Assembly: GCA_001509375.1 (NCBI GenBank)
Contig: LGFT01000005.1
Location: 1 to 51,479 of the forward strand
Origin: Methanothrix harundinacea
Lineage (GTDB): Archaea; Halobacteriota; Methanosarcinia; Methanotrichales; Methanotrichaceae
Direction: 5' to 3'
DNA length: 51,479 bases
This document shows positions 6,692-33,120 of the stretch, piece by piece. The translations under genes and the position numbers were made by a program. Under the pieces are notes generated by a model. The model searched no databases, was not told the DNA's origin, and saw nothing but the letters and a program-made list of their open reading frames with translations. How positions within the stretch are numbered: position 1 is the stretch's first letter; each line of letters starts with the position of its first letter.

Positions 6692-10455
<3,764 letters not shown>

Positions 10456-10463
10456 GTTTACAC

Positions 10464-12278
10464 CTAAACTGCGTCCTCTAAAACCAGCCGAGGGGCAACG
10501 CCGAGGGATTTAATCTCGTCCAGCAGAAGCTTGAAGGCGTAGCTCATCTCCACGGGATAAATCTCGGTATCAGAGCCGCAGACAGAGCAGTAGTCGACGT
10601 TCCTCCTTTTATCGTGAATGGCGATCATGCCGCAGCGGCTGCAGACCAGCTCCGTCACCTTGTCAGACTCGTCGACGAGCCTCTCTTTGAGAGCCAGAGC
10701 TGCTCCGTGGGCGATCAGAACGTCGCGTTCCATCTCGCCGAACCGGAGACCGCCTTCCCTCGCCCGCCCCTCGGTCGGCTGCCGTGTAAGAACCTGGACT
10801 GGACCCCTGGACCTAGCGTGCATCTTTCCCGCCACCATGTGGTAGAGCTTCTGATAGAGGATCACCCCGACGAATACGTCGGCCATGATCTGCTCTCCGT
10901 TGATGCCGTTGTACATCACCTCTCGCCCGGTGTGGGAGAATCCGAACTTGGTGAGGGATCTCCTCATGTCCGTCTCCTCTTCGCCCAGGAAGGCGGTGGC
11001 GTCGGCGAGCCTTCCTTCGAGAGACCCCATCTTCCCTCCGATCATCTCCAGGACGTGGCCCACCGTCATCCTTGAGGGGATGGCATGGGGGTTGACTATC
11101 AGGTCTGGAACCTGGCCGCTCTCGGTGAATGGCATATCCGCGGGCGGGACGATCAGGCCGACGACGCCCTTCTGGCCGTGCCGCGATGCGAACTTGTCCC
11201 CGAGCTCTGGTACCCTCTGGTCTCTCGTCTTCACCTTGGCGAGCCGATTGCCGTTGGAGGACTCGGTGAGGATCACCGTGTCCACTACGCCCTTCTCGTT
11301 AGACCTCATGGTCACGGAGGTCTCCCGCCTCTGCTGAGGTGTGATCCCAAACTCCGTCGGCTCCTCCAAGAACCTCGGAGGGGAGGTCTTCCCGATGAGG
11401 ACGTCGTTGGGAGCCACCACAGCGTTGGGGTTGACGAGGCCGTCGTCGTCGAGCTGGGAGTAGGCCTCAGCCCCCCTCGCGCCCCGGACCTCCATGTCGG
11501 GTATCTCAAACTTGTCCTCCTGGCCTCCGGGGTACTTCCGCTCCTCCGCCTCCGATACCCTGAAGAAGTGGCTTCGTCCGAGCCCCCGTTCGATGGACCC
11601 CTTATTGAGGATAAGGGCGTCCTCGATGTTGTACCCCTCGTAGACGAGGACCGCGACGACGAAGTTCTGGCCCGCGGGCCTCTCATCAAAACCGATGGCG
11701 TCGGCGGTCCTGCTCCTGCATAGAGCCCTCTGGGGGTAGTGGAGATAGTGACCTCGAGTATCGGGCCGGAGCTTGGTGTTGGCCATGGGGGTTCCGAGGC
11801 ACTGCTTGATCATCCCCGCGCCCATGGTGTTTCGAGGGCTGGCGTTGTGCTCCGGGTAGGGGACGAGGCCGGTGCAGATCCCAAGGATTAGGGATGGGTC
11901 GACTTCGAGATGGGTATGATCAGGGGAAATCTCCTCTTCCCAGATGGCCACCAGACCGTTCTCCTCCTCCTCGGCGTCGAGGTACTCGACGAGCCCTTCG
12001 GAGACGAGATCGCCGAAGGTGATCTCACCCCGGCGGAGCTTTTCAACTTGATCTTCGGTGATGAGGGGGGCCCCATTCTCCACGATGATCAGGGGTCTTC
12101 GGGCCCTGCCGGAGTCGGTGTTGATCAGAATCTCGTTCGTCCTCTCGAAGTATGAGACGTTGATCTGGTTGCTTATCTGGCCGCCCCTTCGAAGCCGCCT
12201 CATCTCCTTCACGAGCTCGTGGGGGTCGGAATGAGTTCCCACAAACTCCCCATTGACAAATACTCTCGCGCTACTCAA
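10464..12278 (-). CDS. rpoB1: DNA-directed RNA polymerase subunit B'
   Basis: The C-terminal part of the second-largest subunit, about 604 residues. It contains the hybrid-binding region with [17 protein letters not shown], the motif [10 protein letters not shown] and a C-terminal zinc site [14 protein letters not shown]...CSVCG. The chosen start is TTG 12278, preceded by GGTGG at 5 bases, giving [15 protein letters not shown]. The open frame extends to a TTG at 12305, but that has no ribosome site and lies inside rpoB2. The stop of rpoB2 overlaps the start. The B subunit is split, as in most methanogens and other euryarchaea. Confidence 0.97.
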
Positions 12279-26504: not shown

Positions 26505-26530
26505 AAAAGGATGAAGTGATCCTTTTATAG
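26505..26530 (+). promoter_or_regulatory. Dyad plus TTTTATAG box between moaB-type and first CBS gene
   Basis: AAAAGGAT and ATCCTTTT form a perfect 8-bp inverted repeat (26505-26512 and 26519-26526) with loop GAAGTG. The right arm runs into CCTTTTATAG, a TATA-like box about 50 bases before the first CBS gene. It may be a terminator for the upstream gene or an operator covering the promoter. Confidence 0.35.
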
Positions 26531-26578
26531 AGGGAATCTCTTTAATAAGAACGGCAATCTGCCGCGGAGGTGACAAGC

Positions 26579-27139
26579 ATGGAAACAGAGATTCCGGTGC
26601 GGGATATAATGGCCCGACCTGTGATCACCGTTGATTCCGAGGTTGACGTGGTGAAGGCTGCGAACAAGATGTTCTCCGCAAACGTGGGCAGCTTGATCGT
26701 GATTCACAACGACCAGCCGATCGGGATCATAACTGAGCGAGATCTGGTCGGAAAGATAGTTGCCAAGGCCGCAAATCCAAAAGAGATAACTGTGGGAGAT
26801 GTGATGTCCTCGCCCCTGATCACCATCCCCCCTGACGTCAGCTTGAGCGATGCCGCCATAAAGATGCTAAAATCGGGGGTGAAGAGGCTCCCTGTGATAT
26901 CGGGCGAGGGAAAGCTGGTGGGCATAATCACCGATACCGACCTCGTCTCCGGATCGGCCTCGATAGGCATGGGTGAGATCCTAAGCCACCTCATAGAGAT
27001 GCACAGGGATAGCGTCCATTTCGAGGAGCAGAGAGAGCTGATAAGAGGGATCTGCGAGCGGTGCGGTCAGATCTCAGACTCTCTGGAGGCGGTAAATGGC
27101 GAGCTTCTTTGCTGGAGCTGCAGAGACGGAAATAAATGA
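26579..27139 (+). CDS. CBS-pair protein with C-terminal zinc ribbon
   Basis: A 186-residue protein. Two CBS motifs (Bateman pair) occupy residues about 5-130: RDIMARPVITVDSEVDVVKA...GSLIVIHNDQPIGIITERDLV, then DVMSSPLITIPPDVSLSDA...LVGIITDTDLV. A zinc ribbon CERCGQISDSLEAVNGELLC-WSC closes the protein. CBS pairs bind adenosine ligands (AMP, ATP, SAM); the ribbon could bind nucleic acid or a partner. Start ATG 26579 has GAGGTG upstream; the GTG within that site is not used. It is first of five CBS genes, 40 bases before the second. Confidence 0.88.
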   Translation: METEIPVRDIMARPVITVDSEVDVVKAANKMFSANVGSLIVIHNDQPIGIITERDLVGKIVAKAANPKEITVGDVMSSPLITIPPDVSLSDAAIKMLKSGVKRLPVISGEGKLVGIITDTDLVSGSASIGMGEILSHLIEMHRDSVHFEEQRELIRGICERCGQISDSLEAVNGELLCWSCRDGNK

Positions 27140-27179
27140 ACATTTCGGAATTTTTTGGAGTTGAGCAGGAGAGCGTAAA

Positions 27180-27956
27180 ATGGGAACAATAGTTGGAGAG
27201 ATCATGTCAACGGATCTGATCAGCGTGGAAGAAGGCGACTTCGTGACCCGGGCAAGGCAGCTGATACGCGATAACCAGCTGCGAGGATTGCCGATAAAAA
27301 ACGGCGAGGGACACGTAACCGGGATAGTCACCGACCGGGATATGCTGAAGATAGCTTCGACCCGTTCGAACGTCACGGTCTCAGGCTTTTCTGTGGAGGC
27401 ACCCCTGGTCACCCCCGAAACGGATCTCAAAGAGGCGGCAAAGTCGCTGCTCTCGGCCAATTACGCAATACTGCCCGTGGTCCGGTCTTCAGAAGACCGA
27501 CGGCTCCAGGGCGTGGTCAGCCCAATTGACATATTCAAAAAGATCAACCCGGAGAAGTTGGCCGGAAAAAGGGTCAAAGAGGTGATGAATACCGAGACCA
27601 AGACCTGTGGCCCCCAGGACTCGGTGACTAAGGTCTGGGACGCAATGCTCGATTCCGACTTCACGGGGATGCCCGTGGTGGACGAAAAAGGCAAACCTCT
27701 CGGGATAATTACCCGCTTCGACATACTGAAGAGGGGAGGGGCGCGGATAAGCAAAGATACCAAGGACGTAATGAAAGTGGAAAAACTGATGAGCACACCA
27801 TTATATAGCATTAGTTCGGAGGCGAGCCTTCGAGATGCCGCAAAGATGATGCTCGATCGCGAGATTGGAAGGATATCCGTGGTGGACGACGGCAAACTCG
27901 TCGGAATAATCGACAGATACGATGTTATCAAGGCTATCTTTGGTGAGGGACCATGA
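27180..27956 (+). CDS. Four-CBS-domain protein
   Basis: A 258-residue protein consisting of four CBS motifs: residues about 5-58 (GEIMSTDLISVEEGDF), 65-125 (VEAPLVTPETDLKEA), 130-185 (VKEVMNTETKTCGPQDS) and 200-256 (VEKLMSTPLYSISSEAS). Each ends in the usual VGIIT/D-RYD pattern that binds nucleotide phosphates. There is no enzymatic domain, so it is a pure sensor or regulator. GGAG lies upstream of ATG 27180. It overlaps the next gene by 4 bases (ATGA). Confidence 0.88.
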   Translation: MGTIVGEIMSTDLISVEEGDFVTRARQLIRDNQLRGLPIKNGEGHVTGIVTDRDMLKIASTRSNVTVSGFSVEAPLVTPETDLKEAAKSLLSANYAILPVVRSSEDRRLQGVVSPIDIFKKINPEKLAGKRVKEVMNTETKTCGPQDSVTKVWDAMLDSDFTGMPVVDEKGKPLGIITRFDILKRGGARISKDTKDVMKVEKLMSTPLYSISSEASLRDAAKMMLDREIGRISVVDDGKLVGIIDRYDVIKAIFGEGP

Positions 27957-28900
27957 AGAGACCATCAGAGGATCGGAAGATCAGGATGCCGGGAGCGATG
28001 GATAGGGGACCGGTCCAGTTCGATTCCAGAGCTGCTAAGCGTACAGGGGACGTTCTCACCATTTCGACTAGAGATGTGGTGACGGCACCGCCCACCACCA
28101 CCATCATCGGCGCCATCAAGATAATGACCTCTTATGGTTTCGGAAGGCTGCCGATAGCCGATGCTGGAACCTTGCGGCTCCTGGGCTTCGTCACCGGCGT
28201 CGACGTCGTAGACTTTCTCGGAGGCGGCATAAGACACAACCTTCTCAAAAAGAAGTATGAAGGAAACATCCTCGCAGCCGTCAACGCCGATATCAAAGAG
28301 ATCATGAGCTCCGGGCTCATATCCATCACCGAGAAGTCCTCTGTTGAAGACGCCCTAAAGTTGATGTATGAAAAGAACGTGGGCGGCCTGCCCGTGGTGG
28401 ACGAAGATAACAGGATAAAGGCCCTGATCACAGAACATGACTTCGCAAAGCTCGTGGCCGGGTTGAACACCGGCATCGAGGTCGAGGAGTTCATGAGTCC
28501 GAATGTGATCACAGCCAAAGGTCAGATGTCCATCGAGAAGACCACCAGAATGATGGTCCAACAGGGCGGTTTCCGAAAGCTCCCCGTAGTTCAGGATTCC
28601 ATTCTGATTGGCATGGTCACAGCCTCCGACATCATGAGGTACCTTGGAAGCGGTGAAGCGTTCGGGAAGGTGGTGACCGGAGACATCGGGGAAGTGATGA
28701 GCCAGCCGATAAAGATCCTGGTCCGAAGAGATCCCGTATCCACGGAGAAAGATGCAGACCTCGGAGGGGCGGCAGAGACTATGATGGTGAAGGGTGTCGG
28801 TGCTCTGCCGGTCATGGAAAACGGATCTCTTCTCGGCATCATCACCAAAAGAGACTTCATCAGGGCATTTGCGGAGGAGAAACGAGGGATCATACCATGA
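27953..28900 (+). CDS. Four-CBS-domain protein with basic N-terminal extension
   Basis: A 315-residue protein. An N-terminal basic, probably flexible stretch of about 35 residues (KRPSEDRKIRMPGAMDRG) precedes four CBS motifs: TRDVVTAPPTTTIIGAIKIM, KEIMSSGLISITEKSSVEDA, VEEFMSPNVITAKGQMSIEK and GEVMSQPIKILVRRDPVSTE. It overlaps both neighbours by 4 bases. The family is nucleotide-binding; no catalytic residues are seen. The basic tail may contact nucleic acid, which is inference only. Confidence 0.87.
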   Translation: MKRPSEDRKIRMPGAMDRGPVQFDSRAAKRTGDVLTISTRDVVTAPPTTTIIGAIKIMTSYGFGRLPIADAGTLRLLGFVTGVDVVDFLGGGIRHNLLKKKYEGNILAAVNADIKEIMSSGLISITEKSSVEDALKLMYEKNVGGLPVVDEDNRIKALITEHDFAKLVAGLNTGIEVEEFMSPNVITAKGQMSIEKTTRMMVQQGGFRKLPVVQDSILIGMVTASDIMRYLGSGEAFGKVVTGDIGEVMSQPIKILVRRDPVSTEKDADLGGAAETMMVKGVGALPVMENGSLLGIITKRDFIRAFAEEKRGIIP

Positions 28901-29754
28901 GCAAGGTAAAGGATTACATGCAATCTCCCGTCTACGTCATCGACAAGGAGGAGCCTGTGCAGCGTGCTAGGAACTTGATGCTCAAACACTACATCAGCAG
29001 GCTTCTTGTTATGGACGGAGAAAAACTGGCGGGAATTGTAACCAAACATGACATATCACACCGCCTTAGCCAAGCCGCCCCTGAGTGGCGAAGGCGCCCC
29101 ATCAGCAAAGTCCCCGTCAAGCTAGTGATGACCGACCGTCCCATAACCATCTACCCTGGGGCCACCGTGGAACAGGCCGCGGAGATCATGGACGAGAACG
29201 GAATAGACGGCCTTCCCGTGGAGAGGGATGAGGGGGAGATCGTGGGGATCATAACCTCAAGAGACCTAATCTCCTACTTTGTGGATAAAAATCCCAACTC
29301 CAAGGTCGGCGACCTGATGTCTCAGGCCGTCGTCAGCGTCCACAGGCACCACACCCTCGATCACGTATTGGAGGAGATGATCGATAACAGTGTCGACAGG
29401 GTCGTGGTATGTGAGGATAACGCCACTCCCGTAGGGGTGATAACCCATACCAATCTTGCCATATCTGGAATTTCCGACTCCAAGGGCGAGCTGAAGGGGA
29501 AAAACATCAAGATGGCGAGGAAGGACAGCACCGCAGGGAGGAAGGGATACAGGTACGTGAAGGAGGTCCCCCTGGTGGCGGAGGACATAATGTCCTACCC
29601 GATAATGTTCACCAACCCCGAAGTGAAGGCTGTTGATGCCGCCAAGATCCTCCTCGATAAGGAGATATGCGGCCTTCCGGTGGTAGACGAGGAGAAGTTG
29701 GTGGGGTTCTTCTCCACCCGCGATATAACCACTGAAGTGGCGAGGTGGTCGTAA
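28897..29754 (+). CDS. Four-CBS-domain protein with basic linker
   Basis: A 285-residue protein with four CBS motifs: KVKDYMQSPVYVIDKEEPVQ, KLVMTDRPITIYPGATVEQA, VGDLMSQAVVSVHRHHTLDH and AEDIMSYPIMFTNPEVKAVD. Between the third and fourth is a lysine/arginine-rich insert (KGKNIKMARKDSTAGRKGYR, residues about 198-217) absent from its siblings. It is overlapped by the upstream gene and followed after 2 bases by the fifth CBS gene. Confidence 0.87.
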   Translation: MSKVKDYMQSPVYVIDKEEPVQRARNLMLKHYISRLLVMDGEKLAGIVTKHDISHRLSQAAPEWRRRPISKVPVKLVMTDRPITIYPGATVEQAAEIMDENGIDGLPVERDEGEIVGIITSRDLISYFVDKNPNSKVGDLMSQAVVSVHRHHTLDHVLEEMIDNSVDRVVVCEDNATPVGVITHTNLAISGISDSKGELKGKNIKMARKDSTAGRKGYRYVKEVPLVAEDIMSYPIMFTNPEVKAVDAAKILLDKEICGLPVVDEEKLVGFFSTRDITTEVARWS

Positions 29755-29756
29755 CC

Positions 29757-30533
29757 ATGAAGGTAAAGGAGATAATGTCGAAACCGGTGACCATAGACAA
29801 ATCGGAGAGGATCACGCACGCGCTGGACATCATGGAGAAGCACGATCTCCGGAGGCTTCTCGTCACCAACGACGGCAAGCTCGGCGGAACCATCACCATG
29901 AGACAGATTGCGAGGGTTTTGGGAACCAGACAGAGGCTGGGGATGCCCGCCACCTCCCTTCACGTCGCCTCCGCCACATCGGATTCGGTGGTCAAGGTAG
30001 ATCCTGATATGAAGACAGAAGATGCCGTAATCCTCCTTCAGAAGACCTCGGTTCTGGTGGTCATGGATGAGGATGAGATCCTCGGCTGGGTGAGGCCAAA
30101 AGATATGCTCAAGGCCCTTAGAATGTCGGGGCTCGCCGCCGACGCCATGCGCACGCCCCTGACCGCCTCCCCCTCTGATCGGTTGATTCACGTCCGGAGG
30201 GTGATGCTCGACCGGGATGTAGGAAGACTTCCGGTGATGGAGAACGGGAAACTTGTGGGCATCATTTCGGAAAGAGATGTTGCAAAGTCCCTTCGAGCCT
30301 TCAGAGACTTGGTCCAGGGCGGTCAGCAGGAGGCCAGGGTCAAAAACCTCCTCGTCTCAGACGTTATGAGCCGGGGTGTAAAGTCGACCTACGTCGATAC
30401 GCCCCTTGAGGAGGCGAGAAAGGAGATGTTGGAGGAGGACCTGGGAGGTATACCGGTCCTAAACCAGAAGAACGAGCTTGTGGGAATGCTGACCAGGCGG
30501 TGCTTCTTCGACTACCTGGCGAAGCAGAAATGA
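29757..30533 (+). CDS. Four-CBS-domain protein next to the RNA ligase
   Basis: A 258-residue protein, start ATG 29757 with GAGGTGG upstream; the GTG 12 bases earlier lies in that site. Four CBS motifs: VKEIMSKPVTIDKSERITHA, a more degenerate second (SATSDSVVKVDPDMKTEDAV), DAMRTPLTASPSDRLIHVRR and VSDVMSRGVKSTYVDTPLEE. Its stop overlaps the start of the RNA ligase (ATGA), so the two are translationally coupled. A regulatory link to the ligase is inferred from this arrangement. Confidence 0.87.
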   Translation: MKVKEIMSKPVTIDKSERITHALDIMEKHDLRRLLVTNDGKLGGTITMRQIARVLGTRQRLGMPATSLHVASATSDSVVKVDPDMKTEDAVILLQKTSVLVVMDEDEILGWVRPKDMLKALRMSGLAADAMRTPLTASPSDRLIHVRRVMLDRDVGRLPVMENGKLVGIISERDVAKSLRAFRDLVQGGQQEARVKNLLVSDVMSRGVKSTYVDTPLEEARKEMLEEDLGGIPVLNQKNELVGMLTRRCFFDYLAKQK

Positions 30534-31651
30534 ACCTTCGGGCCGCGGCAGAGAGGCTGGGCTTATCGCCAGAGAGGATGGAACGGATGCTCGGACGGGT
30601 GGTCCGGGATTCCGATTGGCCGACGCCCCGGCTCCTCAGGTTCGACAAGGCAGTCTCCGGAATAGAGGCTGGAACGGTCGTCTTCGAAGAGGACGAGATC
30701 GTCTACGGCTACCCTAAGATACGGCGGGCGATGATGCTTTCGCCCGCCATCAAGAGATGTTTTCCTGACGGTGTTCTTGTCGAGGAGAAGATGAACGGCC
30801 ACAACGTCAGGGTGGCAAGTGTCGATGGGAGAATAATCGCCCTCACCAGAGGGGGCTTCATATGCCCCTACTCCACAGAGGTGGCCAACGATCAGATACC
30901 CCCGGAGATCTTCAAAGATAATCCGGACCTGGTCTTATGCGGCGAGATGGCGGGTCCCAAAAACCCCTATGTTCCTAAAGAGGTCTACCCAATAGAGTCG
31001 ATGGACTTCTACCTCTTCGATGTATCAAGAAAGGGGAGGAGGGATATGGACGGATCTTCGAGAACTCACGCCCTCGCCGAAGAGTACGGGATCAGATCCG
31101 TCCCCCTCTTCGGCAAATTCGGCCTCGATGAGGCAGCCGGGGAGATAAAGGAGATCGTAATGGACCTGGGGGCCCGGGGGCGGGAGGGCGTCGTCATCAA
31201 GGACCCCGAAAACCAGAAAAGCCCCATCAAGTACACCAGCTCCGAGAGTAACTGCAAAGATCTGGAGTTCGCCTTCCGGTACTACAACGACTATGGTCAG
31301 GACTTCTTCTTCTCCAGGGTGGTCCGCGAGGGATTCCAGGCGGCAGAATGGTCCGATGGCGAGGACGAATTTATTGAGAGGTGTTTTCGCCTTGGAAAAA
31401 GCATGCTAGGACCCATGAGGGAGACGGTGGAAGCAAAGATCGCCGGGGAGCCGATCGTCCAGGAGGTGGAGATAATGGTAAAAGACCTCCAGACGGCGGC
31501 GGATTTCGAAGAGCACTTCCGAAGGATGGGGGTCCGGGCCCTGTTCGATCCCCCCCTATCTTGTCCCGGCGGCCACCTGGTTAAGATAAAGAGACTCGTC
31601 ATGAGCACCAACGACAAGACCGAGTCCGTCATCGAGGGGCAGCTCTGGTAA
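30530..31651 (+). CDS. ATP-dependent RNA ligase, Rnl3 (archaeal homodimeric) family
   Basis: A 373-residue nucleotidyltransferase. Motif I VEEKMNGHNVR has the adenylated lysine at residue 87. Motif III is in DFYLFDVSRK, motif IV in REGVVIKDP and motif V in SPIKYTS. A unique N-terminal module and a C-terminal helical domain used for dimerisation fit the archaeal Rnl3 family. The characterised Methanothermobacter and Pyrococcus enzymes circularise single-stranded RNA in vitro; the cellular role is unsettled. The start is ATG 30530, overlapping the last CBS gene. Confidence 0.9.
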   Translation: MNLRAAAERLGLSPERMERMLGRVVRDSDWPTPRLLRFDKAVSGIEAGTVVFEEDEIVYGYPKIRRAMMLSPAIKRCFPDGVLVEEKMNGHNVRVASVDGRIIALTRGGFICPYSTEVANDQIPPEIFKDNPDLVLCGEMAGPKNPYVPKEVYPIESMDFYLFDVSRKGRRDMDGSSRTHALAEEYGIRSVPLFGKFGLDEAAGEIKEIVMDLGARGREGVVIKDPENQKSPIKYTSSESNCKDLEFAFRYYNDYGQDFFFSRVVREGFQAAEWSDGEDEFIERCFRLGKSMLGPMRETVEAKIAGEPIVQEVEIMVKDLQTAADFEEHFRRMGVRALFDPPLSCPGGHLVKIKRLVMSTNDKTESVIEGQLW

Positions 31652-33028: not shown

Positions 33029-33120
33029 GCCGCCGTGGCTTAGCCCGGTAAAGCGGCTGATTCGTAAGGCAACCGGCCCGATATATCAGCAGGTCATGGG
33101 TTCGAATCCCATCGGCGGCT
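33029..33120 (+). tRNA. tRNA-Thr (CGT) with an 18-base intron
   Basis: The gene starts GCCGCCGTGGCTTAGCCCGG and ends GGTTCGAATCCCATCGGCGGC plus T73. The acceptor stem is perfect (GCCGCCG/CGGCGGC). The anticodon stem GCTGA/TCAGC encloses TTCGTA-A, anticodon CGT. It is broken after position 37 by about 18 bases (AGGCAACCGGCCCGATAT), a typical bulge-helix-bulge intron place. CCA is not encoded. A TTAAAT box lies near 32988-32995, about 35-40 bases upstream. Confidence 0.95.

Follow-up and report, generated by a model that had tools for sequence, protein, structure and literature searches.

The 51,479-nucleotide stretch of Methanothrix harundinacea analysed here (contig LGFT01000005.1 of assembly GCA_001509375.1; hereafter the window) carries at positions 26579-31651 a plus-strand run of five CBS-domain genes, which we call g1 to g5, followed by the gene for an RNA ligase of the Rnl3 family. 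Our analysis indicates that this locus is probably a ribosome-hibernation (sri) operon with Rnl3 as its last cistron, in which the ligase would belong to a dormancy programme and serve the upkeep of ribosome-related RNA. Both halves of the locus are of kinds already known, the array belonging with the Sri or CBS-module clusters and the ligase with the Rnl3 family. The apparent novelty lies in the constant pairing of array and ligase across two deep lineages, Methanosarcinia and Archaeoglobi, in a reduced g1-g3-Rnl3 core and in an either-or placement of the ligase with the nuclease HARP. No report of the Sri-Rnl3 link, and no mention of the either-or placement, was found in the literature searched.

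The run opens with g1 (26579..27139), followed by g2 (27180..27956), g3 (27953..28900), g4 (28897..29754), g5 (29757..30533) and the ligase gene (30530..31651). Pfam recognised 2, 4, 4, 4 and 4 CBS stretches in the five array genes, 18 in total, and no other domain in g2-g5. Overlaps of 4 bases join g2 to g3, g3 to g4 and g5 to Rnl3, the last of these being ATGA, and g4 and g5 are 2 bases apart; g1 and g2 are separated by 40 bases, so that g1 has no overlap coupling to g2. An earlier note, made from the letters of the window, had described this co-directional array, its CBS counts, its overlaps and its 2-base spacing, and coordinates and Pfam bear that description out.

The identity of g2-g5 carries most of the argument. 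A fold search with the predicted model of g3 led to three PDB entries, whose titles supplied the Sri names used here: 9ZNF is the Methanosarcina acetivorans 70S ribosome with SriA and SriB, 9ZNG the same ribosome with SriD, and 9ZNI with SriC and SriD. In sequence comparisons g2 matched chain 4 of 9ZNF (8e-61, 209 bits, residues 5-253), g3 matched chain 5 of the same entry (2.1e-78, 267 bits), g4 matched chain 6 of 9ZNI (3.4e-85, 289 bits) and g5 matched chain 7 of 9ZNG and 9ZNI (1.7e-80, 273 bits), with nearly the whole protein spanned in each case. Read against the entry titles these matches identify g4 as SriC and g5 as SriD, while g2 and g3 make up the SriA/SriB pair, g2 probably being SriA and g3 SriB if the naming follows gene order. 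Judged by sequence, the four are full-length orthologs of ribosome-bound Sri proteins, and by orthology they would also bind the 70S ribosome in M. harundinacea. M. acetivorans has the same four proteins, and other Methanosarcina loci keep the same gene order. Beyond its four CBS motifs g3 carries a disordered N-terminal tail, and g4 a basic linker between CBS3 and CBS4 with 10 lysine or arginine residues, conserved in part. For g5 we retained the ATG at 29757 as the start, an alternative GTG lying further upstream at 29745.

A separate resemblance of g3, to the AMPK-gamma homolog MJ1225 (3kh5), was obtained both by sequence (8.8e-57) and by Foldseek (8.9e-33) with the predicted model, which has a mean confidence score (pLDDT) of 81.6. 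We set AMPK-gamma homology aside as the account of g3, since the fold fits yet no kinase was noticed in the operon, and since in functional terms g3 is closest to the Sri chain seen on the ribosome.

Stand-alone CBS modules have been described as potential hibernation factors that are often found in gene clusters (PMC13324472). Such modules bind to ribosomes at rest; some were detected by mass spectrometry in dormant M. acetivorans ribosomes, as cited in the same paper. Its clusters CM-1 to CM-6 consist of stand-alone four-CBS modules like g2-g5 and mostly exclude the hibernation factor HibA, an exclusion also seen here: HibA was found in families f7, f11, f16, f20 and f26, and outside these in one f12 genome that also bears a sri set. 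Searches of the window's own genome found no HibA-type factor (HPF/RaiA-like domain). The main text of that paper describes the CM clusters without any ligase, whereas the array analysed here ends in Rnl3.

The last gene is an Rnl3-family RNA ligase, predicted to be ATP-dependent. Its product matched PF09414 and PF18330 above cut-off and TIGR01209 with 371 bits against a cut-off of 137, and it carries the active-site lysine motif VEEKMNG at residues 84-90, conserved in the family alignment. It shares family and domain layout with MthRnl (5D1O; 1.7e-84) and Pab1020 (2VUG; 2.5e-62), at 34-42% identity. The start at 30530 is matched by the starts of most orthologs, an alternative GTG lying earlier at 30500. 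Among named organisms, those with the most closely related ligases belong to Methanotrichaceae; a viral origin was considered and discarded, no relative being present among the viral contigs searched. RNA ligase genes also occur on two haloarchaeal plasmids, with no bearing on the sri-rnl3 locus. In a group of Methanococcoides-like Rnl3 genes (Methanococcoides vulcani L090, and L132, L136, L138 and L140) the reading frame is open over its full length apart from an in-frame TAG at a fixed site, SGTVV*QKDG, where the ligase may carry pyrrolysine.

To determine how widely the ligase accompanies the array, we used an even sample of 247 genomes from the window's phylum, 103 of which had a substantial Rnl3 match. 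The g3 gene was present in 84 of these 103 genomes, and in 82 of the 84 it lay upstream of Rnl3 on the same strand and within 9 kb. The two exceptions were G239, where the genes are on separate contigs, and G258, which is rearranged and retains g1-g4-g5-Rnl3. The link between Rnl3 and the CBS array is therefore real within the phylum, and the check suggested by the earlier note, a count of CBS genes beside Rnl3, gave a very strong enrichment rather than the lack of one. A separate scan, limited to a single genome for each species, yielded 80 named loci (from Methanotrichaceae, Methanosarcinaceae, Methanoperedens, ANME-2 and one Archaeoglobi genome), and the majority of them carry g1-g2-g3-g4-g5-Rnl3 all on one strand. 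This order was found in 72 of the loci compared, and the median gap between g5 and Rnl3 over all compared loci was -4 bases. Because strand and gene order recur in most of the loci compared, the array is not a product of chance. The outer flanks (MoaB, ornithine cyclodeaminase (OCD), TBP and HisS) are common to the Methanotrichaceae loci alone. In Methanothermobacter a similar neighbourhood, with IMPDH-related CBS proteins beside the Rnl3 gene, may exist, as the earlier note suggested, and would imply conservation.

A reduced form of the locus was found in family f7, sampled by locus in 12 genera (18 loci), which on the Rnl3 tree falls beside JdFR-42, an Archaeoglobi genome, and is probably Archaeoglobaceae. 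All 18 loci contain g1-g3-Rnl3 alone, g2, g4 and g5 being missing at the locus, and in every one of them the gap between g3 and Rnl3 is between -16 and +4 bases. SriD was not found genome-wide in the 12 f7 genomes searched, and HibA was present in 11 of 11 searched. Thus g1 and g3 still accompany the ligase where HibA is available and the Sri set has largely disappeared.

The first member of this core, g1, is best described as a Ta0289-like CBS-rubredoxin protein with a predicted metal ribbon. Its best fold match is Ta0289 (2QH1 and 1PVM, over 177 columns), which has the same layout of a CBS pair followed by a four-cysteine ribbon; identity between the two is 24%, and sequence profiles align the CBS part alone. 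The four cysteines of the C-terminal CxxC...CxxC ribbon (residues 159, 162, 178 and 181) are invariant in 24 of 24 orthologs, in agreement with the zinc ribbon that the earlier note had placed on one of the CBS proteins.

The f7 core bears directly on an alternative in which g1 and g3 would sense adenylates, bind to Rnl3 as subunits and so gate its ATP-dependent ligation, the other Sri proteins merely sharing the operon. Besides being the sole part kept with the ligase at the Archaeoglobaceae-like locus, with tight gaps throughout, g1 and g3 are the proteins in which the ribose-binding [ST]xxD motif, an adenosine signature, is best kept: it was found in 120 of 120 and 119 of 120 g1 sequences at the two sites of that protein and in g3 at site 1 (124/125) and site 4 (125/125), while SriD keeps it at one site of four. 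The N-terminal tail motif of g3 was absent from all 18 f7 proteins (0/18, versus 70/83 of the other Rnl3-linked g3 proteins), as if g3 had there been released from ribosome binding. On these patterns g1 and g3 may be an adenylate-sensing part tied to the ligase. On the other side, the g1-g3 pair is also found where there is no ligase, as in family f10, where they are the only array genes; g3 belongs to the pair seen on the 9ZNF ribosome; and genus g17 of Methanosarcinaceae has no g3 beside its ligase. We consider this alternative unlikely. The nucleotide gating of the ligase proposed in the earlier note is plausible mainly for g1 and g3, the two genes that remain next to Rnl3 once the others have gone, and is unsupported for the five CBS proteins as a set.

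The larger machine that the earlier note had in mind, a nucleotide-gated RNA-ligation complex with all five CBS proteins as its sensor subunits, fits the conserved order and overlaps of the genes. It fares badly against the remaining evidence, however, since the orthologs of g2-g5 have been solved on ribosomes, arrays without a ligase are common, and SriD retains so little of its adenosine signature. We regard it as most improbable.

A different partner for Rnl3 was suggested by HARP, whose co-occurrence with the ligase has already been published (PMC12153264). Of 37 genomes searched, 20 have Rnl3, and every one of these has HARP; of the 17 that lack full-length Rnl3 a single one has HARP, and this genome (G049) carries a shortened ligase remnant. 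In families f11, f16 and f20, which have no sri set, HARP and Rnl3 are divergent neighbours in all eight loci (L146, L151, L154, L160, L168, L170, L172 and L176), whereas no HARP was in range of Rnl3 among the loci where the ligase adjoins CBS genes. In the window's own genome HARP lies on contig C86 and Rnl3 on C73, so the two do not fall within 5 kb of each other and HARP is ruled out as a neighbour of the ligase in the window. In family f26 (G148) Rnl3, HARP and HibA are each on their own contig. The published work describes the pair without CBS genes; here HARP was shared by every Rnl3 genome searched, and its adjacency was seen in sri-less families only. The two placements of Rnl3, with sri or with HARP, fit the Rnl3 tree cleanly, with four changes of linkage state.

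These results could mean that HARP is the true partner of Rnl3, in tRNA or C/D box RNA processing, and that its position behind sriD is a legacy of common descent, of no functional significance apart from the use of a convenient promoter. The near-perfect co-occurrence, the divergent loci in sri-less families and the fit of the linkage changes to vertical inheritance all favour this account. Against it, the flanks of the unit have been reshuffled while Rnl3 remained, and family f7 lost the genes between g3 and Rnl3 without breaking the contact; synteny that is merely neutral would not be expected to outlast the two events. We hold this account to be possible but doubtful, and continue to favour a sri hibernation operon in which the ligase has a dormancy role.

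Several observations nevertheless weigh against that preferred reading. At least 12 families (f5, f6, f9, f10, f12, f14, f15, f17, f18 and f22-f24, including Methanomicrobia-like and Methanocella-like groups) have the sri array, full or partly reduced, but no Rnl3, so that the array is not exclusive to ligase genomes and Rnl3 is dispensable for hibernation. On the g3 tree Rnl3 switches between present and absent six times or more, and Ethanoperedens, Argoarchaeum and family f2 have sri and Rnl3 at separate places. In Methanosarcina the sri genes are widely spaced and an opposite-strand gene stands between sriD and rnl3, unlike the packed genes of the window that run into the ligase; co-transcription of sri and rnl3 is thus not universal. 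The titles of the Sri ribosome entries (9ZNF, 9ZNG and 9ZNI) name neither g1 nor a ligase. Finally, Rnl3 follows HARP more tightly than it follows sri, and the sri link may therefore be regulatory only.

Some loci depart from the common arrangement in other ways. The Methanosarcina loci with long gaps between the sri genes are L089, L115 and L184, and their intervening gene is TIGR00266/AIM24-like by eye. In genus g17, which is Methanolobus-like (L204, L205, L206, L214 and L215), the locus reads g1-g4-g5-Rnl3 with g2 and g3 not in place; g2-g3 is on another contig in one genome, and nine further genomes gave no g3 match at E 1e-50. Genome G266 carries at 8464-11917 of locus L216 a second sri-like set in which a fused g3-g4 protein of about 630 amino acids stands beside g2 and g1, a fusion that recalls the CBS-module fusions described with HibA. 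In G049 (L213, 8458-9870) intact g1-g4 are followed by a broken g5 and a short C-terminal Rnl3 remnant, possibly the trace of a recent ligase loss.

The roles proposed for archaeal Rnl3 are circularisation of C/D box RNAs, stress capping of tRNA and processing of ribosomal RNA (rRNA), and to our knowledge no agreed purpose has emerged after nearly two decades of study. The statement of the earlier note that its cellular function is unknown is nonetheless outdated, as Rnl3 circularises C/D box small RNAs in vivo (PMC9014305). In Thermococcus kodakarensis the loss of Rnl3 led to aberrant 16S and 23S fragments and a changed pool of rRNA fragments, with fragments that map close to the sarcin-ricin loop and to the 5' end of 16S rRNA; the authors themselves caution that this comes from a single replicate, and they doubt a direct action of Rnl3 on rRNA (PMC9014305).

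In the mechanism that we favour, a drop in energy would lead the four-CBS Sri discs, which would be able to sense adenylates, to occupy vacant 70S ribosomes, and the ligase, presumably translated from the same transcript, would serve the same dormancy programme. Its most likely task would be to keep ribosome-related RNA intact together with HARP: during rest or restart it would seal or 5'-adenylate those rRNAs, tRNAs or C/D box guide RNAs that are broken or still immature. The reason for producing Rnl3 alongside the hibernation factors would be that the RNAs on which it acts appear, or become important, in dormancy and restart. As to adenylate control, the CBS module of HibA binds AMP at 12 uM, and AMP or ATP had no clear effect on its ribosome binding (PMC13324472). 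A bolder version would have the CBS-rubredoxin/SriB-like pair contact Rnl3, bring it to hibernating 70S ribosomes and free or activate it as adenylate charge recovers, broken or unfinished rRNA being sealed before translation restarts; the Archaeoglobaceae core would then be what outlived the other Sri proteins. This version we judge distinctly unlikely.

The surroundings of the locus are simple. By-eye reading of the sequence places a candidate start of the transcription unit on the plus strand at 26523..26573, with a putative TTTTATA element at 26523-26529 and a Shine-Dalgarno-like GGAGGTGA at 26566-26573. A sigma-70 promoter and terminator scan performed near chance level, its model being irrelevant to archaea, and was discarded. 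In the window a MoaB-like gene lies upstream of the operon, and genes for OCD and TBP lie downstream. No RNA gene was found within the operon; downstream there is a tRNA alone, a tRNA-Arg(tcg) gene of 92 bases at 33029-33120, between the OCD and TBP genes.

In Methanosarcinia and Archaeoglobi Rnl3 holds a fixed position as the last gene of the sri operon, and where the operon is absent it lies beside HARP; this pattern points to a need for the ligase at dormancy or restart. The f7 remnant singles out g1 and g3 as the first CBS candidates for ligase partners, and the debated role of Rnl3 becomes testable in a tractable methanogen.

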